A DNA stretch of 25,609 nucleotides. Origin: a virus. Location of the stretch: positions 1 to 25,609 of the IMG/VR virus record IMGVR_UViG_3300042504_001105. One strand, 5' to 3'. A program made the translations under genes and the position numbers. Below the pieces are notes generated by a model that saw nothing but the letters and a program-made list of their open reading frames with translations, did not search any database and had not been told where the DNA came from. Of this stretch, positions 6,362 to 20,490 are shown in pieces; position 1 is the stretch's first letter; every line of letters begins with the position of its first letter.

Positions 6362-6619
6362 TTAGCACTTCCACCGTCTCATTGAGGCTTTCGCCCGCTC
6401 TGCATTCTTCGACTTGGCGACTACGCCACCCATCCGGGCGCAAAACGAGGCCTTCCGGCCCTTGTCCGCAGCCGTCTTGGGGGTAGGCGCGGGCGGCTTC
6501 AGCTTGCTGCCCGTCGCCTTGTTGTACTTGGCACGCCCCTTGGCCGTCAGCCCAGCGCCCTTGCTGACGGGCAGCTTCTCACCGCGTCCTACCGACAAAG
6601 ATACGCCCTTGCGCGCCAT
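6362..6619 (-). CDS. Small basic Cys-containing protein, DUF6321-like
   Basis: The chosen start is the ATG at 6619, giving 85 residues; it overlaps the terminase stop (TGATG) and has AGGG five bases upstream. An upstream TTG at 6634 is in frame but inferior. The sequence contains GLTAKGRAKYNKATGSKLKP, then KASFCARMGGV and a closing RRWKC. This combination (KGRxxYNxxTGSxLKxP ... SFCARM ... RxWxC) matches a small phage protein family that I recall as DUF6321. Its two cysteines could bind metal only as an oligomer. The function is unknown. Confidence 0.75.
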   Translation of the reverse strand: MARKGVSLSVGRGEKLPVSKGAGLTAKGRAKYNKATGSKLKPPAPTPKTAADKGRKASFCARMGGVVAKSKNAERAKASMRRWKC

Positions 6620-8145
6620 CACGACCCTAGCCAAGAGGTTGAAACACTTGACTGACCATAAGCCTTGCGCGGCGTTCTGTCAACGCGCTCGCCTCTGGAG
6701 GCCACGGGGAACGCGAATGTAACGGCTATCGCGTCTGCGGCGTCGGGGCTTGCGAGCCCACGGGCTTTCATCTCCTTCTTGCCTTCGAGGAAGATCGTGC
6801 CCTTGCTGTCCGGCTTCATCAGCGGCGAGATCAGGTCCGTCTTCAGCACCCGGTCGGGTGGGATCGACGCGGTCTTCAACCATTCCCGCATGGCTCCCCA
6901 CATCTCGGCCCGCTTGTTGCCGTACATGACCGGCTTGCTGCTCTTGGACCCAAAGTTCACCCCCTTGACCTTGTACCGCTGCTCCTTGAGCCGGTCCACG
7001 ACCCCCGCGCCCAGCCCGCCCTCGTCGATCACCACCATCGTCGGCTGGAACTCTTCCATCGCCTCGATGACGCGGCCGACTACTTCCATGGTGTCGTCAC
7101 CGCGGTAGCGCTTGATTGCCACGATGTCTCGGCCTTGCCGTACCGCGATAACTGTAGCGTCGGCACCGAAGCGTGCCGGGTCCACGCCGAGGACCACTGG
7201 AGCCGAGGCGTCCTTATAGCGGGGTCGTCCCATGGCGTCGTCGACGAGATGGATCGGGATGAACTGGTCATCTCCAGCCGAGGGAAACTCACCGTAGACC
7301 TCAACATGCGCCTGAACGCTGTCAGGCCCGTATTCGAGGATGATCTGCTCATAGACCGCCTTGTCCGTTCCTTCGACCGTGCGGGCGTCCACGGTCTTGT
7401 TGCGCCAGAAGTCCCGCTTGGCGTTGAACGCCTCGTAGAAGTAGCCCGTGTTGCGGCGGGGGTTGGAGAACGCCATCCAGAAGCGGTTGGGCGTGTTCTC
7501 GGTGAAGAAGCCCGCTGCCACCTGCCAGATGCTGTCGGAGATACCGCTGGCTTCGTCGAACACCAGCATTACACCATCGAAGTTGTGCACGCCCGCGTAG
7601 GCGTCCGGGTTCTCTTCCGACCACAGCCGTCCCTCGACGCCCCAGTAGCGCGTGCCCTTCTTCAGGTCGCGCTCGACCAGCTCGGCCAGCCACTTGGCGG
7701 GCATGACGCGGGTAGCCGAGACCTCGAACCAGTGACTGTTCAACGCGAGCGCCAGCCACTTGGTGATCTCGGCCCAGGTGATCGACCGGAGCTGCGTCTC
7801 GGAGTTGGCCGACACGATGGTGCTGGACCCGATCCGGGTCGTCAACATCCAGATGATGAGCCACGAGACGAGGGCCGACTTGCCGATGCCGCGGCCGGAA
7901 GACACGGCCATGCGGAGCACGTCGAAGTCCACCTTGCCGCTGTTCTGCCTGATGTGCTCGGCCAGATCGCGCAGCACCTCGCGCTGCCACTTGCGCGGGC
8001 CAGAGAAGTGCTCCAGCGGCGTGCCGGGCTGCCCCCACGGAAACAGCCACATCACGAACTTGAGCGGGTCGTCCTTGAGCGACGGCGCCCACAGGGACGC
8101 CATCAGGTTCTGCTCGTCCTCAGCGCTGTAGCGCGTGGTCTGCAT
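6619..8145 (-). CDS. terL: Terminase large subunit
   Basis: Encodes 508 residues. The packaging ATPase has a P-loop SSGRGIGKS at 82-90, a Walker B MLVFDEA at 193-199 and a coupling motif around AFSNPRRNTG (225-234). The RNase H-like nuclease has LGVDPARFGAD (319-329, Asp322), VVIDEGGLGAGVVD (371-384, Asp374) and SPDAADAI (466-473). Together these are a complete motor plus headful/cos nuclease, which translocates DNA into the procapsid through the portal. The start ATG overlaps the upstream TAA (TAATG) with no good Shine-Dalgarno, which indicates coupling. The gene order small terminase, unknown gene, large terminase, portal is typical of P22-like and related podoviruses. Confidence 0.95.
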   Translation of the reverse strand: MQTTRYSAEDEQNLMASLWAPSLKDDPLKFVMWLFPWGQPGTPLEHFSGPRKWQREVLRDLAEHIRQNSGKVDFDVLRMAVSSGRGIGKSALVSWLIIWMLTTRIGSSTIVSANSETQLRSITWAEITKWLALALNSHWFEVSATRVMPAKWLAELVERDLKKGTRYWGVEGRLWSEENPDAYAGVHNFDGVMLVFDEASGISDSIWQVAAGFFTENTPNRFWMAFSNPRRNTGYFYEAFNAKRDFWRNKTVDARTVEGTDKAVYEQIILEYGPDSVQAHVEVYGEFPSAGDDQFIPIHLVDDAMGRPRYKDASAPVVLGVDPARFGADATVIAVRQGRDIVAIKRYRGDDTMEVVGRVIEAMEEFQPTMVVIDEGGLGAGVVDRLKEQRYKVKGVNFGSKSSKPVMYGNKRAEMWGAMREWLKTASIPPDRVLKTDLISPLMKPDSKGTIFLEGKKEMKARGLASPDAADAIAVTFAFPVASRGERVDRTPRKAYGQSSVSTSWLGS

Positions 8146-8549
8146 TATTTGCGGCGGCTCATAAAGCCTGTAAACGCCGACATTGCATTGCGCGTGTTTG
8201 CGTTGCCGCCAGAAAAAACGCCGGACAACAGGTCAGCAAACGCATTTCCTTGCTGCGATGGCGCAGGTTCCTCGGGCGGCGACATGAACTGGTAGAACAT
8301 CTTGCCCCGGCTGCCCAGCATGGACGGGCCCACTATGCGCAGCAGTTGTTCTATAGACTGCGCGCGGTCACCAAGGTCTTCGCGAAATTCTGGTCTCAAG
8401 GTCCAGCCGGAATAGTCAGAGAACATTGGCCGCGCGCGGCGTTGGTTTTGGCCAAAATCAAACCTTTGGCCTGCCGTGCCGGGGGTGCGCCCAAACAATC
8501 CTGTAACAAGTTGTTTTTGCGCCGAAATGTCAGGTGATTTCGGAAACAT
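8145..8549 (-). CDS. Unknown protein between the terminase subunits
   Basis: Encodes 134 residues from an ATG with a strong GGAGG six bases upstream. It is Arg/Gly/Phe-rich with a disordered N-terminus (GLFGRTPGTAGQRFDFGQNQ), a central helical stretch with LGDRAQSIEQLLRIVGPSML (about 56-77) and a Gly/Asn-rich C-terminus (ADLLSGVFSGGNANTRN). It overlaps the small terminase by 20 bases and the large terminase by one. No family is recognised. Its position suggests a packaging or head-assembly accessory role. Confidence 0.65.
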   Translation of the reverse strand: MFPKSPDISAQKQLVTGLFGRTPGTAGQRFDFGQNQRRARPMFSDYSGWTLRPEFREDLGDRAQSIEQLLRIVGPSMLGSRGKMFYQFMSPPEEPAPSQQGNAFADLLSGVFSGGNANTRNAMSAFTGFMSRRK

Positions 8550-8991
8550 GCGTTACCTCCGTTGCAACAAGGTCAATTACGCGCCGCTGCGCCTCTTCCA
8601 ACGCCGCCGTGATGCTGATCTTCTGCTCGATGCTGACCTCGACCGCCTGCTTGGCCACCCACCCATGGGCGTAGCGCAACATCTCGGTCGCCGCCTTGGC
8701 GTCGCCCGCCTCGGCAGCGGCGTACAGGGTGGTGGCCATGGCGCGCTCGCCCTCGGCGCGGCCCTTCTGTTCGGCGTACTCCGCGATGGGGTCCATCTGG
8801 CAGAGCTTGCGGTACTCGACCGGCGTCATGCCAGCGGCGAGTGCCAGGCTGTCGCCCTTGAGCCCCAGCTTGGCAGCCGCGTAGATCGCCTCCAGACGCG
8901 CCTCGGTGGCGGTCAGCGGACGCGGGTCATAGGGCAGTGAGTGGAAGGTCATGACGTCAAGATAGCGCGGGTTGGCTGTTTGAGCAAGCAT
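8530..8991 (-). CDS. terS: Terminase small subunit
   Basis: The first good start is the ATG at 8991 (153 residues). An in-frame TTG further out and another ATG at 8952 are alternatives, and none has a clear Shine-Dalgarno. The N-terminal region (LTATEARLEAIYAAAKLGLK, then ALAAGMTPVEYRKL) forms a DNA-binding helix-turn-helix. It is followed by helices with EYAEQKGRAEGERAMATTLY and AGDAKAATEMLRYAHGW, typical of the oligomerisation domain of small terminases, and then an AALEEAQRRVIDL helix. It recognises the packaging site and delivers DNA to the large subunit. It is the first gene of the packaging set and overlaps the next by 20 bases. Confidence 0.8.
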   Translation of the reverse strand: MLAQTANPRYLDVMTFHSLPYDPRPLTATEARLEAIYAAAKLGLKGDSLALAAGMTPVEYRKLCQMDPIAEYAEQKGRAEGERAMATTLYAAAEAGDAKAATEMLRYAHGWVAKQAVEVSIEQKISITAALEEAQRRVIDLVATEVTHVSEIT

Positions 8992-9078
8992 CAAGTATTT
9001 TGTTGTGAGCGTGGAGAAAAAATAAAAAGTTTTTGCGGTCCTTGGCCACGGCAACAGCAGCCGCGCTCGGCCCTGCCC

Positions 9079-9181
9079 CCCCCCTCCCCCCTGAGCACTC
9101 GCAGCAAAATGCTGCAATGCAACTGTTATACTAGTATATCAGTCGCCTGGCGCGCGGGGCGCGCGACTAGCTGCAGCTAGT
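9079..9181. repeat. Homopolymer tract and short perfect palindromes upstream of terS
   Basis: This intergenic stretch holds long C runs (from about 9076), then two perfect palindromes: TATACTAGTATA at 9127-9138 and ACTAGCTGCAGCTAGT at 9166-9181. Between them is a GC-only inverted repeat (GCGCG...CGCGC). The word CGCCTGGCGCGC also occurs twice, here and again inside the next gene at about 9243. Placement just upstream of the small terminase gene would fit a packaging (pac/cos) or control site, but no known site was matched. C-run lengths are also prone to sequencing error. Confidence 0.4.
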
Positions 9182-9216: not shown

Positions 9217-9546
9217 CTAGCGCCGCGGCAAGGGCAGTCCAGCCGCCTGGCGCGCATTCCATTCCAGATCGGTCAGGCCTTGCGTGTACCATTCCGCGCG
9301 GGGGCTCAAACGATAGGTCTGAATGCGCCCGTCCGCGCGATCGATGAATAGATAGATAACGCCCTTGGGTGTCCGGCATGACAGGCCATAAACGTGAAGC
9401 GGCGCCCGCGGAACAAGGAATTCGACTAGGGCGCGCCATTGGTTGCGCGTAATCTGTCCGTCGACAACGGCGGGCGCTAACCAGATCTTAACTGCATATT
9501 CGTCCGCCAGATCGGCGCTGGGTAATATGGGCATTCTCTTGGGCAT
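9217..9546 (-). CDS. Unknown small protein, first gene of the leftward module
   Basis: Encodes 109 residues from the ATG at 9546, chosen because GGAG lies seven bases before it. A longer reading to 9675 would run through the promoter and operator. The sequence MPKRMPILPSADLADEYAVK is followed by alternating strands and helices, including VVDGQITRNQWRALVEFLVP, LHVYGLSCRTPKGVIYLFID and TQGLTDLEWNARQAAGLPLP. It resembles no family I can name. It is transcribed from the divergent control region next to the operator-like palindrome, so it may be an early leftward gene. Confidence 0.65.
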   Translation of the reverse strand: MPKRMPILPSADLADEYAVKIWLAPAVVDGQITRNQWRALVEFLVPRAPLHVYGLSCRTPKGVIYLFIDRADGRIQTYRLSPRAEWYTQGLTDLEWNARQAAGLPLPRR

Positions 9547-9565
9547 GTGCTTTCTCCAAAACTGA

Positions 9566-9589
9566 CAAATCACATATAGGCGTGATTTG
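9566..9589. promoter_or_regulatory. Operator-like perfect inverted repeat over a leftward -10
   Basis: The arms CAAATCAC and GTGATTTG are perfect 8-bp inverted repeats separated by 8 bp, giving a centre-to-centre spacing of 16 bp (about one and a half helical turns). The repeat covers the -10 of the leftward promoter at 9573-9601, where a dimeric helix-turn-helix repressor would block transcription. The only visible HTH candidate gene in the window is at 23445-23681; no link is shown. Confidence 0.6.
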
Positions 9590-9601
9590 ACGATTCGGCA
9601 A
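9573..9601 (-). promoter_or_regulatory. Candidate sigma-70 promoter, leftward
   Basis: Reading leftward, TTGCCG (9601-9596) and TATATG (9578-9573) are separated by 17 bp. Each matches four of six consensus bases. It lies about 27 bases upstream of the ATG at 9546 and would drive the 9217-9546 gene and perhaps the packaging genes beyond. Confidence 0.5.
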
Positions 9602-9687
9602 GGGTCGACAGGGCTGTAGGCGCCGGGGTAGTCGTGGGGTAGTCGTGGGCAATCGTAAACTACCCCACTATCCATATGCTCTGATAA

Positions 9688-9703
9688 ACTGTAATTTTAC
9701 AGT
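9688..9703. repeat. Perfect palindrome ACTGTAA-TT-TTACAGT
   Basis: Seven-base perfect arms around a TT centre in the AT-rich core. The CTG-N8-CAG spacing is two bases shorter than an enterobacterial LexA box, so it is better regarded as a protein-binding palindrome of unknown owner. Confidence 0.5.
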
Positions 9704-9713
9704 ACCATACTAT

Positions 9714-9735
9714 TATATTAGCATTTACTAATATA
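9714..9735. repeat. AT-rich perfect inverted repeat
   Basis: TATATTAG and CTAATATA flank a 6-bp spacer, giving perfect 8-bp arms. It could form a cruciform or bind a dimer. A leftward TATAAT hexamer (9717-9712) overlaps its left arm, but no good -35 is found at 16-18 bp. Confidence 0.5.
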
Positions 9736-9863
9736 CAACTAACCAGTCTTATAGTTAGAGAGTATACCCATAATACCCATCATGCGATTGCATAAGGCTT
9801 TTAGAGCCACTCCGCATTGCCCCACGCTGTACCCCACGCGTACCCCACCAACTACCCAACGAA

Positions 9864-9889
9864 AAACGGCGGCCGTTGGGCCGCCGTTT
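9864..9889 (-). terminator. Intrinsic terminator, oriented leftward
   Basis: The arms AAACGGCGGC and GCCGCCGTTT (10 bp, perfect) enclose a 6-base loop. Read leftward the stem is followed by TTTTTC, a good rho-independent terminator. Read rightward it is followed by TTTGCTT, which is weaker. It would stop leftward transcripts entering the control region from the early cassette side. Confidence 0.65.
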
Positions 9890-9894
9890 GCTTA

Positions 9895-9912
9895 CTACGC
9901 CATATGGCGTAG
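9895..9912. promoter_or_regulatory. 18-bp perfect palindrome
   Basis: CTACGCCATATGGCGTAG is a perfect palindrome with no spacer, placed between the terminator hairpin and the rightward promoter at 9988. It is probably a dimer-binding operator; the binding protein is unknown. Confidence 0.5.
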
Positions 9913-9987
9913 CACGTCCATTTTTCCGCGTCAAGCGACCCTTGCGAGGCCTATTCAGCCTGGTTTTCGCATGTCATAAAATAGTTG

Positions 9988-10016
9988 TTGACATTGCGTG
10001 GATGCTTCGGCATAGT
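9988..10016 (+). promoter_or_regulatory. Sigma-70-like promoter for the rightward early cassette
   Basis: A perfect TTGACA (9988-9993), a 17-bp spacer and CATAGT (10011-10016, four of six consensus bases) lie about 30 bases before the start codon of the clamp-like gene at 10047. It is the best promoter match in the control region. Confidence 0.7.
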
Positions 10017-10046
10017 GGGCGCATCAACAAGAAAGGAGACGACACT

Positions 10047-10616
10047 ATGCTAATCGCTACTGACATTCTCAAGGCCGCCCTGCTTTGCGCTTCGCAGAAA
10101 GAGAGCCGCTACTACCTTCGCGGCGTGCACCTGAGCACCACGGGCCACCTGGTGACGACGGATGGCCATCGCCTCTTTTGTGCCAAGCTGACTGAAGCCC
10201 CAGCGGCCGACGTCATCATTCCGCTTGATACGGTCAAGGCCGCGCTCAAGCTGGCGCCGAAGAAGGCCGCCACGATCGAACTGAACGGCAACACATTGGG
10301 CGGCATTGTGTTCGCGCCGGTAGACGGCACATTCCCGAACTGGAAAGCAGTCATCCCGCCGATCGACGGCTATTCACCCGGCAAGCCTGAGCACATGACG
10401 CCCGCGCATTTTAATCCGGACTACATTTATGACATTGGCCAAATGTCGCGCGCGCTTGGTTCCAAAACCGGAACCGCGTTTCGCGTTCATGCTTGGAACA
10501 ATGAAAGCCCGCATGGCGTGACGTTTGCAGGCCGTGAAGATTGCTTTGCCGTCATCATGCCCATGCGCACGGTGAAGGAAGCGACACCCTGGAACGTCGC
10601 CCGTTCCATCGCTTGA
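10047..10616 (+). CDS. Sliding-clamp-like protein (DnaN domain)
   Basis: Encodes 189 residues from the ATG at 10047, preceded by AAGGAG at eight bases; longer in-frame readings run through the promoter. The segment KESRYYLRGVHLSTTGHLVT followed by TDGHRLF (residues 18-44) is the hallmark of the middle domain of the bacterial beta clamp. IELNGNTLGGIVFAP and DGTFPNWKAVIPP match the following strands of the same fold. Bacterial clamps are about 366 residues with three domains, so this is a half-length protein that could assemble as a higher oligomer or act on the host clamp pathway. It would tether the phage DNA polymerase or a nuclease to DNA. It is the first gene after the candidate origin and its own promoter. 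Confidence 0.7.
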   Translation: MLIATDILKAALLCASQKESRYYLRGVHLSTTGHLVTTDGHRLFCAKLTEAPAADVIIPLDTVKAALKLAPKKAATIELNGNTLGGIVFAPVDGTFPNWKAVIPPIDGYSPGKPEHMTPAHFNPDYIYDIGQMSRALGSKTGTAFRVHAWNNESPHGVTFAGREDCFAVIMPMRTVKEATPWNVARSIA

Positions 10617-11801: not shown

Positions 11802-12007
11802 CCCCGGACTTCGCCTATTGGGCAGGCCATTGCAGCGCGTTTGACGACGCGACACTGTTGCGCTTCCTTGATGCCGTGGACGTGCGCCGCAACCGCTACG
11901 ACGCGGCCCTTGCGGCCGCGCAAGCGGAGGCCATGCGCCGCAACCTCATAGAAGAAAAGGCCCCCGTCACCGGGGGCCAGTCAACAATAGGGAGGAAACA
12001 GCCTTGA
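11798..12007 (+). CDS. Small protein with TTG start (69 aa)
   Basis: TTG at 11798 overlaps the previous TGA and has AAGGA about nine bases upstream; no ATG exists before residue 47. The translation MTPDFAYWAGHCSAFDDATL and an Arg/Ala-rich helix (AVDVRRNRYDAALAAAQAEA) look protein-like. The last third (KAPVTGGQSTIGRKQP) coincides with a perfect leftward terminator hairpin and with the Shine-Dalgarno of the next gene, so its sequence there is probably shaped by those elements. Confidence 0.5.
   Translation: MTPDFAYWAGHCSAFDDATLLRFLDAVDVRRNRYDAALAAAQAEAMRRNLIEEKAPVTGGQSTIGRKQP
11959..11978 (-). terminator. Leftward intrinsic terminator inside a rightward gene
   Basis: Perfect 8-bp arms GGCCCCCG and CGGGGGCC enclose TCAC. 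Read leftward the stem is followed by TTTTCTTC. Read rightward it is preceded by AAAA and lacks a T-run. It sits in the 3' end of the 69-residue gene and is suited to stopping antisense transcription arriving from the leftward replication operon that ends at 12731. Confidence 0.65.
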
Positions 12008-12471
12008 CGTATCACGACGTGCCACTGGACGCAATAGAGATTGAGCGGCGCCTACGGGCGTACCTCGACGACCTGGTACAGCTCGCGGGCGGGCCCGTGA
12101 CGGTCTGGCGCGCGGCCCGCATGGCCATGGAGCACCTGCGGCGAGCGGCCGACGCGCCCAATAGCGAGCCCGTGACGCTGCCGACGACGCACCCCGAGCG
12201 GATCGTGTGGGCGGTGGCGACCGCGCATGGGCTCACAGCCGACATCCTGCGCGGCCCGTCGCGGACGCGCGACGTCAGCGCGGCGCGGCATCATGCGGTC
12301 TGGGAACTGCGCCTGCGGCGACCCGACCTGCCGCTGGACAAGATCGCGGCTTGGCTGAACCGCCGTGATCATGCGACGATGATCCACAGCTTGAAGACGT
12401 TCCGCAAACTGCGCGCGAACGGTCAATACGACGAAGAGCGCGCCCTTGTAGAGCGCGCCCTGTCATGTTGA
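12004..12471 (+). CDS. DnaA domain IV-like DNA-binding protein
   Basis: Encodes 155 residues from a TTG at 12004 with a strong GGAGG eight bases upstream; the TTG overlaps the previous stop. Residues about 64-138 resemble the C-terminal DNA-binding domain of the replication initiator DnaA: HPERIVWAVATAHGLTADIL, then SAARHHAVWELRLRRPDLPL and the signature NRRDHATMIHSLKTFR (119-134), equivalent to GGRDHTTVLHA in DnaA. The AAA+ ATPase domain is absent, and the N-terminal 60 residues are a short helical domain. It could recognise the candidate origin, recruit or mimic host DnaA, or regulate transcription. It is encoded in the same cassette as the clamp-like protein. Confidence 0.78.
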   Translation: MTYHDVPLDAIEIERRLRAYLDDLVQLAGGPVTVWRAARMAMEHLRRAADAPNSEPVTLPTTHPERIVWAVATAHGLTADILRGPSRTRDVSAARHHAVWELRLRRPDLPLDKIAAWLNRRDHATMIHSLKTFRKLRANGQYDEERALVERALSC

Positions 12472-12540: not shown

Positions 12541-12753
12541 ATGAGAGTTAAAACAACTTACGCTAAAACGCTTTGGTGCCCGTTTGCACGGTCGTCCAAC
12601 GAGGGGGACTATTCAGCTAATAGAACTTACGACGGCGACCCCGATGCGGGTTGTAAATGTATCGCCGACCGATGCATGGCTTGGCGCCCGGTCGGCGAAA
12701 CTGGTGCTTCAGGCTATTGCGCGCTTATGGTTAGCCGTCAAGCCCGCCCTTGA
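12541..12753 (+). CDS. Cys-rich small protein, possible zinc binder (70 aa)
   Basis: The start is the ATG at 12541 with AGGAG eight bases upstream. The translation has WCPFARSS (about residues 12-19), then CKCIADRCMAWR (52-63) and GYCAL. The spacing WCPF...N...CIxxxCMAWR...GYC is a recurrent phage small-protein family in which the cysteines probably bind zinc. The function is unknown. The 3' end overlaps the end of the convergent primase-helicase gene by 23 bases. Base composition here is less GC-rich than in its neighbours. Confidence 0.75.
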   Translation: MRVKTTYAKTLWCPFARSSNEGDYSANRTYDGDPDAGCKCIADRCMAWRPVGETGASGYCALMVSRQARP

Positions 12754-15079
12754 TTAGCTTAAGATCCGGCTCCGGCGCGGTTGCTGGGGCCGGTACTGGT
12801 TGCGGCGGTTGCTCAATCATGCGCCGCAGGTCGCTCTTTGAGTAGCTGCGCGTCATGTCTTCGCGCGCCCAGATGTTTTTCTTGGTCTGATATTCCGCCG
12901 ATTTGACCGCGCCAAGGTCGATCCAGCCTGCTTCCTTGAGGCCATGCAGCAGCGCCGCCTGGGGGACCTTGACGCCGCCGGGCGCGCCTTGCTGCAATGT
13001 GCTGCAAAGTTTATGGAACGGGGAGGCGATGACGCCCGCGGCGAACTCGGGCGATGGCTTGTGCACCTGCTCGATGACGTAGCTCTCCGCCATGCTGCGG
13101 CCCGTCTCAATGAGGCGCGTCCGGTAGTCCGTCCACGGCGGCATGGCTGCCGGGTTGAACGCCGACACGTCGCGGTCGAGCAGCCACCGGCCCACGGCTT
13201 GGAGGCCGCCCTGCTTCTTGTACCACGACCACAACGCCACCGCGTCGGCCTTCTCCATGCGCGGCGCGTGCGACCACAGGCAGAACCAGCGGCGGTCCTG
13301 CGTCGGCAACGACAACGGAACGGGATCGTTGGTGAACGCCAGCACGAACAGGCGGTTGACCATGTCGTAAGGATGCAGGCCCTTGCGCTCAATGGTCAGC
13401 GTATCGGGCGGCGCCGCGATGATCGGCTTCAGCTTGTTGGACAGCGAGCGGCGCTGCGCGGCTTCCGGTTCCTTCAACTCGTTCAGGATCAGGATCTCGC
13501 TCTCAAGCGCGTAGCCCCAGCGGGAATTGATGCCGTCAGCGTCCACCAGTCCGCGGTTGCGCAGGTCCGGCCCGCACACGGACCAGATGAAGGGGAACCA
13601 GAACGTGTCCTTGCCGCAGCCCTCGTCGCCGCCATGCAGCACCGCGTGATTGATCTTCACCTCCGGGTGCTGGATCTTGTAGGCCATGACGTCGAAGACG
13701 TGCTCGCGCTCGACCAGATCAGGGATCAGCAGCTCGGCATGGGCCAGCCATGGCGTGACGTCGCCCGGCGCGACGCCGGACAGGTCAGGTCGCGCGTTGA
13801 CCCAGCGGTTGCCGTAGACCTCGCTGTCCTTGGCGACAAGAACGCTCTCGCCCGCGGCGTAGGTCAGCCCGCGCAGCACGCGCGCGCCCGCCCCCTGGCG
13901 GTTCTCGTCGTAGCAGACGGACGCCTCGACCTTGCGTTGCGTGTGGATGGACTTGCAATCGACGTGCCGGAACACCGCGTTGAACGCGCCGCGCGTCATC
14001 TCCCGCCGGTCGATCATGTCGAAATAGGCGTCGTCCTCGACGATGTATGCAAACCGGCTGAACCACTCGCGCTTGGTCAGGCGGCCCAGCTCCTTGCGGT
14101 CAACCTCGGCGATGACCTCGGCCGCCGCGTCAGGGAACGCCTCGGTCGGTTGGATCGTCGCGGCCACCATGGCCATGCGCTCGGCCACCAGCTCCTCGCG
14201 GAAGCCCGCCTGCACCGTCGGCCCGCCCTGCTCGGCCACCCATGCAAGGAACGCATTGCTGTCAAGATGCTCGCAGTGGGAGTGGTAGCAGCAGAACGCC
14301 CGGTTGACGGGCGAGTAACGCCCCTCGATCTGGCCGTCCGTGTGCGCGGCATGGTTTGGGCAGACGACGCCGCACCAGCCCTCGCGGTTGACCTGGGAGA
14401 GCACCAGCCCCTGCTCGGAGAGCCACTTCAGCACGCTGTCGGAGCCCGTGTCGCGCAGGCGGATCACCTGCGGCCCAGCACTGTCGGCGGGCGCTGGCGT
14501 GACGTCCAGCCCCTCGCAGATGGCGGCAAGCGTGTACTCGCGCTCGGGGTGGAACTCGACCAGCCGCGCCGGGAACAGGTCACGCCCCGGCTTGAGGTTA
14601 GGCGAGCCCGGCAGGCGGCAGTTGCGCACCGCGTTGGTGGCGCCGGGGTCGGTATAGCCTGCGGCCGCAATGGCGGTGATGGCCGCGACGAACTCAGCCT
14701 TGGTCGGCTGCTCCTTGAAGGCGTAGCCCCACTGGCAGTTGCCGGGCGACGTCTCGACGATCCACGTCGGCGGCACGGGCGGGGTCTTGGACTTGGTGCC
14801 GATGTCGTCCAGCATCATGAACAGGACGAACTCGCAGTTGGCCGCCGACGCCGACGGCTTGCCATCGAAACGGTCGATGATGAACGAGCCCGTGTTGATG
14901 AACCAGCTCTCGCCGCCCCTGCGCACACGCGACGGCAGGAAGGCGGGCCATGTGAACTTGAGGGTGCCATCACGGTGTGTGACCTGCTGCCCGTCGTACA
15001 TGACGGGCTTCTGGCGCACGATCAGGGCTGTTTCGCCGTCCGGCGCAAGGCCGGTCAAGTATTCTAGAAGGTCTGACAT
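12731..15079 (-). CDS. Primase-helicase (AEP-type primase plus SF3/D5-like helicase)
   Basis: Encodes 782 residues. The N-terminal third resembles RepB-type archaeo-eukaryotic primases: FVLFMMLDDIGTKSKTPP (84-101), TWIVETSPGNCQWGYAF (105-121) and AVRNCRLPGSPNLKPGR (150-166). A Cys/His cluster follows (CPNHAAH, CCYHSHCEH, about 240-271), probably a zinc-binding primase-associated segment. The helicase (DUF5906/virulence-associated E style) has Walker A HGGDEGCGKDTF (482-493), Walker B EILILNELKE (528-537) and sensor/Arg finger AFTNDPVPLSLPTQDRRW (581-598). It would unwind DNA at the fork and make primers for the phage polymerase. The C-terminus is Pro/Ala-rich. GAGG precedes the ATG. Confidence 0.88.
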   Translation of the reverse strand: MSDLLEYLTGLAPDGETALIVRQKPVMYDGQQVTHRDGTLKFTWPAFLPSRVRRGGESWFINTGSFIIDRFDGKPSASAANCEFVLFMMLDDIGTKSKTPPVPPTWIVETSPGNCQWGYAFKEQPTKAEFVAAITAIAAAGYTDPGATNAVRNCRLPGSPNLKPGRDLFPARLVEFHPEREYTLAAICEGLDVTPAPADSAGPQVIRLRDTGSDSVLKWLSEQGLVLSQVNREGWCGVVCPNHAAHTDGQIEGRYSPVNRAFCCYHSHCEHLDSNAFLAWVAEQGGPTVQAGFREELVAERMAMVAATIQPTEAFPDAAAEVIAEVDRKELGRLTKREWFSRFAYIVEDDAYFDMIDRREMTRGAFNAVFRHVDCKSIHTQRKVEASVCYDENRQGAGARVLRGLTYAAGESVLVAKDSEVYGNRWVNARPDLSGVAPGDVTPWLAHAELLIPDLVEREHVFDVMAYKIQHPEVKINHAVLHGGDEGCGKDTFWFPFIWSVCGPDLRNRGLVDADGINSRWGYALESEILILNELKEPEAAQRRSLSNKLKPIIAAPPDTLTIERKGLHPYDMVNRLFVLAFTNDPVPLSLPTQDRRWFCLWSHAPRMEKADAVALWSWYKKQGGLQAVGRWLLDRDVSAFNPAAMPPWTDYRTRLIETGRSMAESYVIEQVHKPSPEFAAGVIASPFHKLCSTLQQGAPGGVKVPQAALLHGLKEAGWIDLGAVKSAEYQTKKNIWAREDMTRSYSKSDLRRMIEQPPQPVPAPATAPEPDLKLIKGGLDG

Positions 15080-15459: not shown

Positions 15460-18294
15460 TCATGCCTTACCGTAACGAGCAAGCACTTTGCCGCTGGCAC
15501 CCAAAGGAAGCCCTTCAGCCCACGCGGGAGGGGTAACCATAACAGCCTGCATCGCGGCTGCCAATTCTTCTGATTTTTCTGTATCAACCTCGGCTACAAT
15601 TTCGTCGTGGACGTGCAAGACGACCTCGACGCCCGCGGCGTCCAGACCGCGCAGCGCCTCGCGCAGGATGTCGTTGGCAGTGGCCTGCACGATGTTCTCG
15701 CAGGCGAGCCCGCGCCAGAGCCGCGCCCGTGGCCACTCCTTGGCATCCGCCGCAGGCTTCCACGACGCCTTGGCGTAGGATACGCCGTCCTCCTCGAACC
15801 GCGCGTAGGGGTAGCACAGCACGCGGCCCGACGGCAGCGCGTACCACAGGTGGTCGCCCTGCTTCATGTACTGGACGCGGCCCGCCGTGAACACCTCGCC
15901 GGGGTTGCGGATGGCGCGGGTGTAGGCCTGCTCCAGATCCGACCAGAACGGCACGGCCCACGGATTGGCGCGGCGCCACAGGTCCACGGTGCGCCTCGCC
16001 TCGCTCTCGGGCATGTGGACGCCGTAGACGCGGCCCATGGCGCTGAACGCGCCCACGCCGCCGCCGAACCCGCAGTTATGTGTTATCAGCGGCCCCCTTG
16101 CACTCATCACTGTGAAGCGATTTTGAGGCCCCGCATACGCAATGTCGTAGACGCGCCTCAAGTTCGAGGATGTATCGCTGCATTTTTTGAATGCTGCGCT
16201 TGTTGTTGCAGTTGTCGCGCTTTGAGATAAATCGTAAGTTGCCGGGTTCGTATCCTTTGTTGACGTCGATACGATCCAGTTCCAAGCGCGGCTGATCCCA
16301 GCCATCCAGCGACATAACGTACGCAAGGAACGCAACTTTGTCAGTGTGCCACGGCTTGTAAAGACGAATACCTCGCCCGCCGTAGTTTGGGAACCCTCGG
16401 TCGTTTGGGTTGTGGCACCTGTTTTTGCAAGCGGACAAACGATTAAGAAGTCGCCGCCGATGCGCATCATTTGGACAAACGGTTGCGTACCGGAAGTAAT
16501 TCTTAATCCAATGTCCAGTAGCTTTTTTTGCACACGTATTACAGCGCGTAGAAGCGCCGTTTCTAAGGTTGTGAAGAGCGGCGACGTGAGGGGCGGCACC
16601 ACACGAGCATTGCACAATCGCGCCTCGTACCCCGCCAGCGGGACCGATTTGAAAACCAATGATGGCAAGTTCTCCGAACCTGTCGCCAACGCTCGGCAAA
16701 GCAACGGTTCGCTTGAAGCGAGTAGCCGCGCCTCGGCCCACTCGTTCGCTGCAAGAAACAAATGATCCGGCGTTGCGTCGATGCCTGCCACATTGACAGT
16801 CTGCTTTACACCTCTTGGAATTACTCCTTGGTGCGTCACCCATGCTTCACCGTCCCATAGTGCGTCGAGTTGTGTTACCTCCTGAATAGCCTTCCATCCG
16901 TTATCCGTCAACACTAACGTGTCTTCGGCTAAACAGGCCAGCACGGCCACCTTGCCAAGCTGCCGCTGCTCGTCAGTGACGGCCGTCTCCTCGACGTTGA
17001 ACATGCGCGCGGCGACGGCAACGTAGATGTCGCGGCCCTCGCGGAACACGTCCAGCGTCTCCTCGCCGTCCATCGACAGCCACGGCGTGACGCGGGCCTC
17101 GATCTGGGCGTAGTCGAACACGGCAAAGGACTTGCCCTCGGCCGGGATCAGCGCCGGGCGCAGCATCGACTTCAGCACGTCGGTGACGCGCTTGCCAAAC
17201 TCGGGCACGATCTGATGCCCGCGCACGAGTGCCTGGCGGGCTAGTTCAGGCTCTTTGGCACATTTTCGTGGGAAGTTGTGTACCTGTAATCCGTAGCTTG
17301 ATGCTCGGCCCGTAGCGCTTCCGCCAGCGAATACAAACGCACCCCGGACGCGACTGTCGAGATCATCTGAGAGCGATGCAGCTCGCTCAAACTTCGCCAC
17401 GGACGATGCCCAGAGATCGTCCGCGCACTGCACCACCTCATGGACTTCCGGGGATACTTCATCAGGGTTCTCCATCGCCAGCAGGTTGGACCGCACGGTC
17501 TTGTCGATGCTAGCCTTTTGTTCGCCGTCCTTCCAGACCATCATCATGGCCCGTGCCTGCGGCCCAACGCGCTCCAGCACCCACTCGCGCATACGGGGGC
17601 TACGCACGCTGGTGAGCCCCGTGATCTCGCGGAAGATCGTCTCGATCTCCTCCTGCTCGGCGGCGGCATACTTGACGGCTGCCTGCGCCAGCGGGCGGTC
17701 GAGGCGCACGCCGCGGTCGTTGATGCGCTCGTTGACGTGGTAGTCAAGCAGCTCCTCGTCGGTCAGCCCGCGCATAGCCTTCGAGAAGGCCCGCATGGCG
17801 CGCACGTCCTGCTCGCAGTACTCGATCATCTCCTGCATCAACCCGGCGTCCTCGCGGAACGTGCCGTTGGCCTGCGGGATGGACAGCGCACGCACCAGTG
17901 CTGCGCCACGGTGGTCCTTGCGCATCCCTGCGCCCGCAAAGCGGCCCACGTCCTCCAGGCTACCCGGTGCGCAGTTGGCGCGGGCCTGCGTCGCGGTGCA
18001 GTAGAACTGCGTCAGCGCAGGCTCGGGCACGCCGTGGTCAGGGCAGATGACGTACCAGAAGATCAGCCGCTCGAAGGCGGCGTTGTGGGCGCGGATCTGT
18101 GCGCCAGAAAGAATTGCCGCCGAAACTTTCTGTGGAAAGGACTGATCGGGTGTCCACGTCTGCACGTCCTCGTCATTGAAGGCGTAGGACATGCAGAGCA
18201 CTTGTGTGGAGATGTCTTGCGCGTAGTTGTACACGCCCCGGCTCGGCAGGTCGCAGCGCGAGCGGGTCTCGAAGTCAACCCAGAGTATTGTCAT
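15460..18294 (-). CDS. DNA polymerase I (family A) with intein
   Basis: Encodes 944 residues including a 287-residue intein, so the mature enzyme is about 657 residues. The 3'-5' proofreading domain has WVDFET (Asp7, Glu9), RAHNAAFE (68-75) and YCEQDV (159-164, Asp163). The polymerase has motif A VFDYAQIEARV (392-402, Asp394), motif B RQLGKVAVLA joined after splicing to CGFGGGVG, and motif C LHVHDEI (893-899, Asp897). The helix containing Arg444 and Lys448 is the nucleotide-binding O helix, and the intein interrupts it between A453 and C741. No Shine-Dalgarno is visible before the ATG. The gene lies between the possible ssDNA-binding protein and the secreted hydrolase in the leftward replication operon. 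Confidence 0.92.
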   Translation of the reverse strand: MTILWVDFETRSRCDLPSRGVYNYAQDISTQVLCMSYAFNDEDVQTWTPDQSFPQKVSAAILSGAQIRAHNAAFERLIFWYVICPDHGVPEPALTQFYCTATQARANCAPGSLEDVGRFAGAGMRKDHRGAALVRALSIPQANGTFREDAGLMQEMIEYCEQDVRAMRAFSKAMRGLTDEELLDYHVNERINDRGVRLDRPLAQAAVKYAAAEQEEIETIFREITGLTSVRSPRMREWVLERVGPQARAMMMVWKDGEQKASIDKTVRSNLLAMENPDEVSPEVHEVVQCADDLWASSVAKFERAASLSDDLDSRVRGAFVFAGGSATGRASSYGLQVHNFPRKCAKEPELARQALVRGHQIVPEFGKRVTDVLKSMLRPALIPAEGKSFAVFDYAQIEARVTPWLSMDGEETLDVFREGRDIYVAVAARMFNVEETAVTDEQRQLGKVAVLACLAEDTLVLTDNGWKAIQEVTQLDALWDGEAWVTHQGVIPRGVKQTVNVAGIDATPDHLFLAANEWAEARLLASSEPLLCRALATGSENLPSLVFKSVPLAGYEARLCNARVVPPLTSPLFTTLETALLRAVIRVQKKLLDIGLRITSGTQPFVQMMRIGGDFLIVCPLAKTGATTQTTEGSQTTAGEVFVFTSRGTLTKLRSLRTLCRWMAGISRAWNWIVSTSTKDTNPATYDLSQSATTATTSAAFKKCSDTSSNLRRVYDIAYAGPQNRFTVMSARGPLITHNCGFGGGVGAFSAMGRVYGVHMPESEARRTVDLWRRANPWAVPFWSDLEQAYTRAIRNPGEVFTAGRVQYMKQGDHLWYALPSGRVLCYPYARFEEDGVSYAKASWKPAADAKEWPRARLWRGLACENIVQATANDILREALRGLDAAGVEVVLHVHDEIVAEVDTEKSEELAAAMQAVMVTPPAWAEGLPLGASGKVLARYGKA
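16075..16935 (-). mobile_element. Intein in DNA polymerase motif B
   Basis: Polymerase residues 454-740. Splicing block A is CLAEDTLVLTDNGWKAI with Cys454 as first residue; block B is GIDATPDHLFL with Thr508 and His511; block F is VYDIAYAGPQNRFTV (715-729); block G is GPLITHN followed by Cys741 as the first extein residue. All residues needed for class 1 splicing are present. The segment between blocks B and F (about residues 530-710) has no homing endonuclease motif in this frame. Instead an HNH endonuclease is encoded there in another frame (16076-16843). The element is in frame with both exteins and should yield an active polymerase after splicing. Confidence 0.88.
16076..16843 (-). CDS. 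HNH homing endonuclease nested out of frame in the intein
   Basis: A 255-codon ORF in the -1 frame relative to the intein. From about residue 50 it matches the common phage HNH family. First comes SVGDRFGELAIIGF with a zinc-finger-like segment CSCG (79-82) and CNTC (101-104). Then comes LLNRLSACKNRCHNPNDRGF, NYGGRGIRLYKPW (153-165) and the nuclease core LELDRIDVNKGYEPGNLRFI followed by KRDNCNNKR (about 187-215). A C-terminal helix and CVCG segment follow. The first about 50 residues overlap intein block B coding and look non-homologous, so the true start is uncertain; ATG 16843, an in-frame GTG at about 16741 and a TTG at about 16696 are candidates, none with a clear Shine-Dalgarno. Its TAA lies within the last two codons of the intein. 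GC is lower than in the exteins, which indicates later arrival. Confidence 0.8.
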   Translation of the reverse strand: MGDAPRSNSKRCKADCQCGRHRRNAGSFVSCSERVGRGAATRFKRTVALPSVGDRFGELAIIGFQIGPAGGVRGAIVQCSCGAAPHVAALHNLRNGASTRCNTCAKKATGHWIKNYFRYATVCPNDAHRRRLLNRLSACKNRCHNPNDRGFPNYGGRGIRLYKPWHTDKVAFLAYVMSLDGWDQPRLELDRIDVNKGYEPGNLRFISKRDNCNNKRSIQKMQRYILELEARLRHCVCGASKSLHSDECKGAADNT

Positions 18295-18994: not shown

Positions 18995-20119
18995 TTAGAC
19001 AAGTTTACCAAGGGCAGCAGCGAGATGCTTGCCGACCTGCAACGACGCCGGGCGCGGATCATCCGCGGTTGCCAGCGTGTCACCCGATGAGACGGCGGTG
19101 ATGAGCCCCTCCGGCATGGCGAGCTTGTGCTTCTTCAGCACCTTCTCGACCTGCGCCGGGCTCTTCAACTCCGTCAATTCCGTAGCACTACAGCCTGCTT
19201 CGGCAAGGGCTGTCAATGCCGCCTGTTCGTTCACCCACTGCCGCGTGGCCCGCTTCGGGACCATCTTCCAGCCGGGCACCTCAACACCCGCCTCCAACAG
19301 CGTCACAGCCATCTCGCGGGCGTCCTTGATCCAGCCCTCCAGCAGCTCAATGCTGGCCAGCGCCTCCGTCAGACGGTCCACGTTGACCGCCTTGATGTTC
19401 TCGCGCTTGGCGCGCTCGACGGCACCGTTCACCAGCGGGCAGATCGACTTGGCAGCGCACCAGCGGCAGTGGTCGCCGGTCGCCAGCGGCGCGTCCGGCC
19501 GCTGCGCGGTCTTGACAGCCATGATCAGTTCGGCCTCGAAGCGGCGCACCCGGTCGAGGTCCGTCACCCAGCGCCGCACATGCGGCGGCTGCACGATGAT
19601 CACCTCGACCGTCTCGACGCCCTCGAAGGCCCAGCGTGTCGCCTCGGTGCGAAGTGCGGCAGCCGTGTAGAAGAGCGCCTGCGGGTTCTCTTCAGCCTCG
19701 ACAGGCACGCCATCGCCAAACTTCCAGTCCAGCAGAATGCCGCGATTGCCAATCCGGCCAACAAGATCGGCGGAACCAAAAACACCAGGGAGAGCGTCAC
19801 CAAAGCCCACCACCTGCTCGACCGCGTATTCCAACTGTCCATCCGGGTCGATCTCATCCAGCACCGCCAACGCGGGCAGCAGCTTGCGCTCCAGCCGGTC
19901 CTCCGTCAACTCGATGCCGTTGTACATCAACCCAAGGAACTCCTCGGGCCTCTTGGTCGTCTCCAGAATGGTGGCGATGACGTTGTGCAGCAGCGTGCCC
20001 TCGTCGGCGTAACTGCTGGACGGCTTGGGCGGCACCTGCTGCACAAGCGCGACGCTGCCGGGGCACGCAATGACACGCTTGGCGGTCGAGCCGCCGACGA
20101 TGTTAGAGTGTTGGGCCAT
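18995..20119 (-). CDS. Cas4/RecB-like PD-(D/E)XK nuclease, DUF2800 type
   Basis: Encodes 374 residues. Nuclease motifs are ADEGTLLHN (His45), GVFGSADLV with Asp118, ILLDWKFGDG with Asp131 and Lys133, and a QALFY helix at 147-151. Four cysteines fit an iron-sulfur cluster as in Cas4 and AddB: Cys19 in IACPGS, then CRWC (218-221) and C227. The family (DUF2800) is common in phage replication and recombination operons and probably processes DNA ends. The ATG follows AAGGG at about nine bases and overlaps the previous stop (TAATG). Confidence 0.85.
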   Translation of the reverse strand: MAQHSNIVGGSTAKRVIACPGSVALVQQVPPKPSSSYADEGTLLHNVIATILETTKRPEEFLGLMYNGIELTEDRLERKLLPALAVLDEIDPDGQLEYAVEQVVGFGDALPGVFGSADLVGRIGNRGILLDWKFGDGVPVEAEENPQALFYTAAALRTEATRWAFEGVETVEVIIVQPPHVRRWVTDLDRVRRFEAELIMAVKTAQRPDAPLATGDHCRWCAAKSICPLVNGAVERAKRENIKAVNVDRLTEALASIELLEGWIKDAREMAVTLLEAGVEVPGWKMVPKRATRQWVNEQAALTALAEAGCSATELTELKSPAQVEKVLKKHKLAMPEGLITAVSSGDTLATADDPRPASLQVGKHLAAALGKLV

Positions 20120-20466
20120 TATTCGCCACCCTTCAATGTAAGACCAAACTGAAGCAAAAAGTCCTTTATCTCTTCCACAACCACAGCACCTGCGTTTGGC
20201 TCCCGAAGTATATCCCGCTCGGTCAGTTGTGCTAGCCCGTGTATTGTTTCAGCGCCCATAAACCGCACGACGTTGCGCGACCTCAAACTCAAATCGGTCC
20301 AACTTAACTTTACGCGGTCAATGTCTATAAATACGCCGCGTTTGGCGCTTGTCGCGGCTACAATGTGCGCTTTTTTTTGCAGCAACATTCGTCTTTCCGC
20401 TTGCAGTTCTTTAACGCGCGCCTTTGCGTCTGCAATTTTCAAATCAATTTCTGCGATCTCGTCCAT
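20119..20466 (-). CDS. Coiled coil fused to an RNA polymerase alpha-CTD-like domain
   Basis: The start is the ATG at 20466, with AGGAG six bases upstream (115 residues); an in-frame ATG at 20490 is less likely. Residues 1-35 form a Lys/Glu-rich coiled coil. Residues about 58-112 read DLSLRSRNVVRFMGAETIHG, then LAQLTERDILREPNAGAVVV and EEIKDFLLQFGLTLKG. This aligns well with the alpha C-terminal domain of bacterial RNA polymerase ([47 protein letters not shown]). Arg62 and Asn65 correspond to the DNA-contacting Arg265 and Asn268 of E. coli alpha; the Lys298-Ser299 pair is not conserved. It may bind UP-like elements or host transcription factors. It is first in the leftward replication operon. 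Confidence 0.72.
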   Translation of the reverse strand: MDEIAEIDLKIADAKARVKELQAERRMLLQKKAHIVAATSAKRGVFIDIDRVKLSWTDLSLRSRNVVRFMGAETIHGLAQLTERDILREPNAGAVVVEEIKDFLLQFGLTLKGGE

Positions 20467-20490
20467 TGTCGTCTCCTGTTGTTTCGTCAA

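Follow-up and report, generated by a model that had tools for sequence, protein, structure and literature searches.

A candidate iteron-type replication origin beside the terminase genes of a podovirus-like phage, with a stand-alone DnaA domain IV protein as its possible reader

One of the questions raised by this locus is why short repeats face each other across an AT-rich core beside the terminase genes of a phage, and which protein might read them. The locus lies at about 9625-9860 of a complete viral metagenome record of 25,609 bases (here the window, meaning the whole stretch of DNA that was analysed), which holds a partial podovirus-like genome; its longest relatives reach 34-40 kb, leaving aside one 75-kb record. 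A sequence-only reading had taken the locus for a replication origin. Based on its layout, its conservation and its neighbours, we consider it reasonably probable, though well short of certain, that the element is an iteron-type replication origin.

Layout and gene surroundings of the element

The left arm (9625-9655, minus strand) contains two tandem GGGGTAGTCGT units at 9625-9635 and 9636-9646, with a period of 11 bp, and its minus-strand sites, GGGGTAG at 9625 and 9636 and TGGGCAATCG at 9646, point toward the core. The right arm (9820-9860, plus strand) holds three CCCCAC copies at 9820, 9832 and 9843 (spacing 12 and 11), followed by a degenerate fourth, TACCCAAC, at 9853. Both repeat sets are oriented inward, toward the AT-rich centre. 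The left tandem repeats and the three to four CCCCAC copies on the right lie where the sequence-only reading had placed them and exceed what is found in shuffled DNA: CCCCAC/GTGGGG occurs 5 times in 236 bp, compared with at most 3 in 200 dinucleotide shuffles. A wider site motif, set post hoc after the relatives had been inspected, gives 7 sites per 300 bp compared with at most 6 in 200 shuffles (6 being reached in one shuffle). Further sites were also found, namely a CCCCAC at 9663, within an additional plus-strand site, CTACCCCAC (9660-9668), on the core-facing edge of the left arm, and a TACCCAT pair at 9765/9774, which makes up the core pair TACCCATAATACCCAT (9765-9780, plus strand), two sites 9 bp apart. 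The block 3' of this pair (9781-9804, plus strand) appears by eye to be conserved with variation. The helical phasing that had been proposed for the repeats is only rough: spacing in the window is 11-12 bp, but it is 9 bp in the core pair and it varies among relatives.

Between the arms lies an AT-rich core (9669-9764), a candidate unwinding element, in which the window's least stable 60 bp are found by nearest-neighbour stability. The AT fraction over 9672-9790 is 0.689, compared with 0.391 in the whole window (GC 0.609). The AT-rich core with two perfect palindromes that had been described is thus confirmed, at 69% AT and with perfect inverted repeats at 9688-9703 (arms of 7 bp, loop of 2 bases) and 9714-9735 (arms of 8 bp, loop of 6 bases).

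The right border of the element is a terminator-like hairpin with a minus-strand T run (9865-9888, minus strand), which in relatives keeps its pairing while the stem sequence varies (by eye). To its right stands a perfect 18-bp palindrome, CTACGCCATATGGCGTAG (9895-9912), with arms that co-vary in relatives. The CTAC-N10-GTAG palindrome has 33 family sites with the inner 10 bp in 10 versions; 30 of the 33 are perfect and the other three break the central pair only, whereas nine distinct chance matches of the pattern break 3-5 of the 5 pairs. By hand, one of 34 sites (CAAGACTTGC in L085) was removed as a chance match. That the sites stay symmetric up to the centre although their sequence changes points to a cruciform or to a protein that binds DNA as a dimer and whose specificity shifts. 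On the minus strand of 9895-9934, TTGAC...GACGTGCTAC stands before the palindrome, in the window and by eye in most relatives, aimed into the terminator-like hairpin; it may be a promoter from which a very short RNA is made toward the element. Outside the left arm, TTGCCG-17-TATATG (9573-9601, minus strand) was seen by eye as a possible leftward promoter; it was not reported by a consensus promoter scan, and in several records, though not in all, inspection by eye showed a similar TTGCNN-17-TAnnnn to the left of this arm. A search of Rfam gave two matches only, both far under gathering scores. Elsewhere, in L010, L011, L014 and L016-L019, accessory-gene promoter-like stretches carry TTATCCCCAT, TATCCACAT or TATGCACAT near the -10 position (by eye); these stretches, upstream of small genes, are DnaA-box-like and often divergent.

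On the minus strand to the left of the element are a terminase small subunit-like ORF (orf8530, 8530-9117), assigned by its position before TerL and by aligned relatives and without a family in Pfam or PHROGs, then the terminase large subunit TerL (6619-8145, minus strand; PHROGs phrog_2, E 5e-45) and a P22-like portal. On the plus strand to the right are the gene for a short sliding-clamp-like protein (10047-10616; Pfam DNA_pol3_beta_2 9e-7; TIGR00663 3e-10) and, about 2 kb on, that for a stand-alone DnaA domain IV protein, which we named DnaA4 (12004-12471; Pfam Bac_DnaA_C 3e-11). Beyond it, on the minus strand, come a primase-helicase (RepB_primase and DUF5906; 12731-15079), another candidate origin binder, and a family A polymerase. 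Of the adjacency once claimed for the clamp-like and DnaA-like genes, the first part holds, with the clamp-like gene starting near 10047, but the DnaA-like gene is about 2.1 kb off. With an ATG near 9546 as the start of the left gene, the gene-free region that was also claimed runs over about 9547-10046; this no longer holds if the alternative upstream ATG at 9675 is the start of that gene.

Some of these neighbours have features of their own. The clamp-like protein is labelled RusA-like Holliday junction resolvase through phrog_3007, against beta clamp in Pfam and NCBIfam, and from these matches the former label looks wrong. The family A polymerase ORF (15460-18294) has an endonuclease-like stretch inside (phrog_93, residues 473-758), probably an intein, and most mapped relatives carry the polymerase as two adjoining pieces without the endonuclease-like gap. 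An ORF at 20119-20490, at the head of the polymerase operon, matches RNA_pol_A_CTD (Pfam 7e-7), and similar ORFs occur in the G011 and G017 records.

Conservation of the element among relatives

Protein queries only gave 19 distinct contigs, some of which form near-duplicate pairs (L014/L015, L010/L020). The element is present in 17 of them, one contig starts inside the right arm, and one, a distant contig with a clamp identity of 35%, is without it, so that the repeats were found in every relative with enough sequence except this one. A loss of the repeats alongside conserved flanking genes, which the sequence-only reading had named as evidence against itself, was seen nowhere; by eye it is the small genes on both flanks that change, while the element persists. 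More relatives were collected with the core pattern and the palindrome pattern, and genes were mapped on 21 records, window included, which are mutually related and non-independent. In all 21 viral records the element adjoins the terminase genes and is the strongest site cluster of the record, the best cluster outside it having 2-5 sites. The site count is higher than in all 40 shuffles of the same record in 19 of the 21. The remaining two, G001 and G002, have 6 sites each and their shuffles also reach up to 6; for them the case rests on sequence homology and not on counts. The G001 record (L002; 75,554 bases) has about two genome lengths with a second partial gene set, and may be a joined or chimeric assembly.

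The inward orientation is also kept: over the 21 records 81 left-arm sites are on the minus strand and 6 on the plus strand (n=87), and 49 right-arm sites are on the plus strand and 1 on the minus strand (n=50). The core pair is spaced 9 bp in every record (spacings of 9, 10 and 11 were searched). By nearest-neighbour stability, the least stable 60 bp of the record lie inside the element in 20 of 21 records (the exception is G001), and the least stable 100 bp in 18 (exceptions G001, G013 and G019). An exact canonical DnaA box, TTATNCACA, is found in 4 of 21 cores, compared with a mean of 0.15 and a maximum of 2 in 500 shuffles; three cores have TTATCCACA and one has TTATTCACA, and the window core has none. 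Three of these four cores are alike in context and may represent one event, which would make two events in all. A search with an exact 23-mer had no match, because the window has a variant of the 23-mer.

In more distant relatives, which are TerL relatives in genome bins together with named phages, arrays are again found. L136 has nine TTGTCCACA and one TTATCCACA in 400 bp, and TTGTCCACA is absent elsewhere in its 13 kb; the L139 array has six TTG(T/C)CCACA, that of L141 nine TTGCT(T/A)ACA (with one copy elsewhere) and that of L137 four TGCC(C/T)ACA, and L138 has two TTGTTTACA. MW202483 (Podoviridae sp. ctNMl277) carries eleven GTTTACA in its array and four elsewhere in 38 kb, and the cultured Rhodoferax phage P26218 (NC_029061) has TTGTAGCAG-like repeats. 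These two phages are like the window in having an array at the matching place beside the terminase genes, but they differ from it in repeat sequence; the depositors' feature tables of MW202483 and NC_029061 annotate no origin. What these relatives keep is the position next to the terminase genes, while the repeats themselves differ in sequence. In the partial contigs L136, L137, L139 and L141 the least stable 60 bp lie within the array. The number of stretches less stable than the array is one in MW202483, two in L138 and six in OR003940. The last of these (L148) has another repeat type at the corresponding place, overlapping a promoter-like stretch; its repeats resemble in part a repressor operator and it was dropped as support. 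Six TerL relatives fall in bins of Rhodoferax (two contigs, one bin), Methylococcaceae, Burkholderiales, Gammaproteobacteria and an actinobacterium, which is too mixed for a host to be named.

Candidate readers of the repeats

Another question that is raised by the arrays is which protein binds them. DnaA4 has 155 aa and a Pfam match to Bac_DnaA_C only, and DnaA models align only at its C-terminal end; by its sequence it is a domain IV protein without the AAA+ domain III, and not a DnaA. Its predicted structure (pLDDT 84) has the domain IV fold, with VIA Z scores of 16.1 to 3pvp and 15.6 to 1j1v over residues 62-155 in a comparison limited to folds ranked by Foldseek, and the alignment shows a conserved recognition helix. 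H123 and T125 are invariant among 19 aligned phage DnaA4 sequences, and the window protein has an alanine at the position aligned to T435 (numbering from PMC5742627). The gene was found by protein search in 20 of 20 relatives (9/9 and 11/11), which form one group and were in some cases found via DnaA4 itself. PHROGs has no family for DnaA4, and tblastn against the phages collection at 1e-3 gave no match. At the corresponding place MW202483, reached through TerL, has a diverged protein annotated as a DnaA helix-turn-helix protein.

In E. coli DnaA, as described in PMC5742627, the recognition helix reads the TnCACA half of the box and R399 reads TTA in the minor groove, and box binding is impaired in the T435M and R399A proteins. 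Of TTATnCACA, the boxes of the window clade retain chiefly the CCA(C/T) half. Together with H123 and T125 and the alanine at T435, this half fits an altered specificity of DnaA4, which may bind the window repeats.

DnaA4 is not required for arrays in general, since L136, L137 and L141 bear arrays and have no DnaA-like phage gene by Pfam or tblastn; the arrays of these three should therefore be read by a different protein, for which host DnaA and the primase-helicase are candidates. One option, compatible with the origin claim, is that the window origin too is read by one of these, DnaA4 doing something else such as promoter regulation. The primase-helicase would read the origin as alpha of P4 does. 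The gene is found in 21 of 21 records and also in relatives without DnaA4, and the C-terminal end of the protein is less conserved among L136, L141, MW202483 and the window. For host DnaA, the L136 boxes TTGTCCACA and TTATCCACA are near-canonical DnaA boxes, but those of the window clade and of L141 are far from canonical, and binding by the primase-helicase would be an analogy with P4 alpha. We regard this option as possible but doubtful.

Origin, late promoter or packaging site

Either a late promoter or a packaging site would also be expected where the element lies, directly upstream of the terminase and late genes. A serious rival, by analogy, is a late-transcription control region, in which DnaA4 would act on the left arm like GafA or GafY and activate the leftward terminase-portal operon. 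In gene transfer agents (GTAs), the N-terminal domain of GafA resembles DnaA and its binding site lies 75-125 bases upstream of terS (PMC9638019), and GafY makes contact with RpoD and recognises an upstream element of the GTA promoter (PMC11150451). The two set a precedent for a DnaA-like DNA-binding domain, either N-terminal or a protein by itself, that works next to terminase genes, upstream of a structural gene cluster, and assists in recruiting RNA polymerase; the likeness of DnaA4 to GafA runs via DnaA itself, which and not GafA is the sequence compared. The leftward promoter-like pair seen by eye beside the left arm and the RNAP alpha-CTD-like ORF of the window would fit such a role. Yet a late promoter leaves unexplained the second, mirror-image array with the terminator-like hairpin at the right border, the core as the record's least stable DNA, and the arrays kept in relatives without DnaA4. 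A GafA-type DUF6456 partner was not matched among the Pfam-scanned ORFs of the window, which is part of a genome of about 38 kb. The right arm, the melting of the core and the arrays of relatives that have no DnaA4 are all explained by an origin, which is therefore preferred; late control seems to us improbable. Less probable still is a packaging site, at which the small terminase subunit would read the repeats as sites that flank a cut point in pairs: the array remains beside terS/terL even in relatives with other replication genes, and several records seem to be mutual circular permutations, as from headful packaging (circular assembly does likewise), but the small subunit has a helix-turn-helix-like stretch, in the window AAKLGLKGDSLALAAGM, that is near-constant while the repeats vary (TACCCCAC, TTGTCCACA, TTGCTTACA, GTTTACA), which makes this protein an unlikely reader, and the canonical DnaA boxes of some cores would have no reason there.

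The preferred replication origin would work as follows. An origin-binding protein on both inward-facing arrays and the central pair would strain the DNA, the AT-rich core between the arrays would melt, the phage primase-helicase would enter the melted bubble, and the family A polymerase with the clamp-like protein would then extend. In the window clade the array binder would most likely be DnaA4, acting by itself or serving host DnaA or the primase-helicase as an adaptor. As DnaA4 is without the ATPase domain, it should mark the origin and not open it via a DnaA filament.

Iteron origins and DnaA boxes are already known kinds. PMC4980987 describes plasmid iteron origins as made up of repeats together with an AT-rich element for unwinding and, optionally, DnaA boxes. 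The element resembles these origins (RK2 oriV and others) in its short tandem repeats, which are beyond chance and about one helical turn apart, in the AT-rich low-stability region beside them and in nearby replication genes, and possibly in the DnaA boxes of some members, of which the window has none. It differs in having two arrays that face each other across the core, in units of about 9-12 bp compared with 17-22 bp in RK2, F, P1, R6K and pPS10 (PMC4980987), and in that no RepA/TrfA-type initiator was seen and origin function is predicted here. With bacterial oriC and DnaA (PMC5742627) it shares an encoded domain IV protein, a low-stability core and boxes that are near-canonical in L136 or present as TTATCCACA in three cores and TTATTCACA in one; in contrast to bacterial DnaA, DnaA4 has no AAA+ domain and has alanine at the T435-aligned residue, and the window-clade boxes keep chiefly the CCA(C/T) half of the oriC box. 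Compared with GafA and GafY, the phage system shows mirror-image arrays, a melting core and arrays that are kept in relatives without the protein. The open-access literature searched yielded no paper dealing with these arrays or with a phage initiator that consists of DnaA domain IV by itself, and in the text of PMC10611076 that was searched DnaA, 'replication origin' and 'origin of replication' have 0 occurrences. Arrays that face each other, boxes that change fast although their place is fixed, and a DnaA domain IV protein that stands alone form a variant that we have not seen described in that literature.

The sequence-only reading is supported by the conserved inward repeats, the least stable DNA and the replication genes nearby, but not by the GC-skew check that it had proposed. 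In 10 records the minimum of the cumulative GC skew is 7-19 kb from the element, with the maximum near the element in some, and fourfold-site skew shows no difference between would-be leading and lagging genes; plain and fourfold-site GC skew give no clear origin at any other place either. Because GC skew is unhelpful and origin use is predicted from sequence, we hold our confidence in replication starting at the element at the level given at the outset.

Origins of uncultivated phages are seldom known, and these results offer a place-based rule, by which candidate origins can be sought in related phages between the terminase genes and the replication module despite complete change of the repeats. 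P26218, which is cultured, infects Rhodoferax sp. IMCC26218 and has an array at the matching place (about 33.3-33.65 kb of NC_029061), allows a direct test. The window also gives a testable case of a phage that possibly took over just the DNA-reading part of DnaA. A speculative explanation, to which we give limited credence, is that this whole group of uncultivated podovirus-like phages cut DnaA down to its DNA-binding domain as a private origin mark and that the boxes drifted from those of the host, the relatives with near-canonical boxes and without the gene representing a host-DnaA-dependent state. If this is true, the phage origin would be recognised apart from that of the host.
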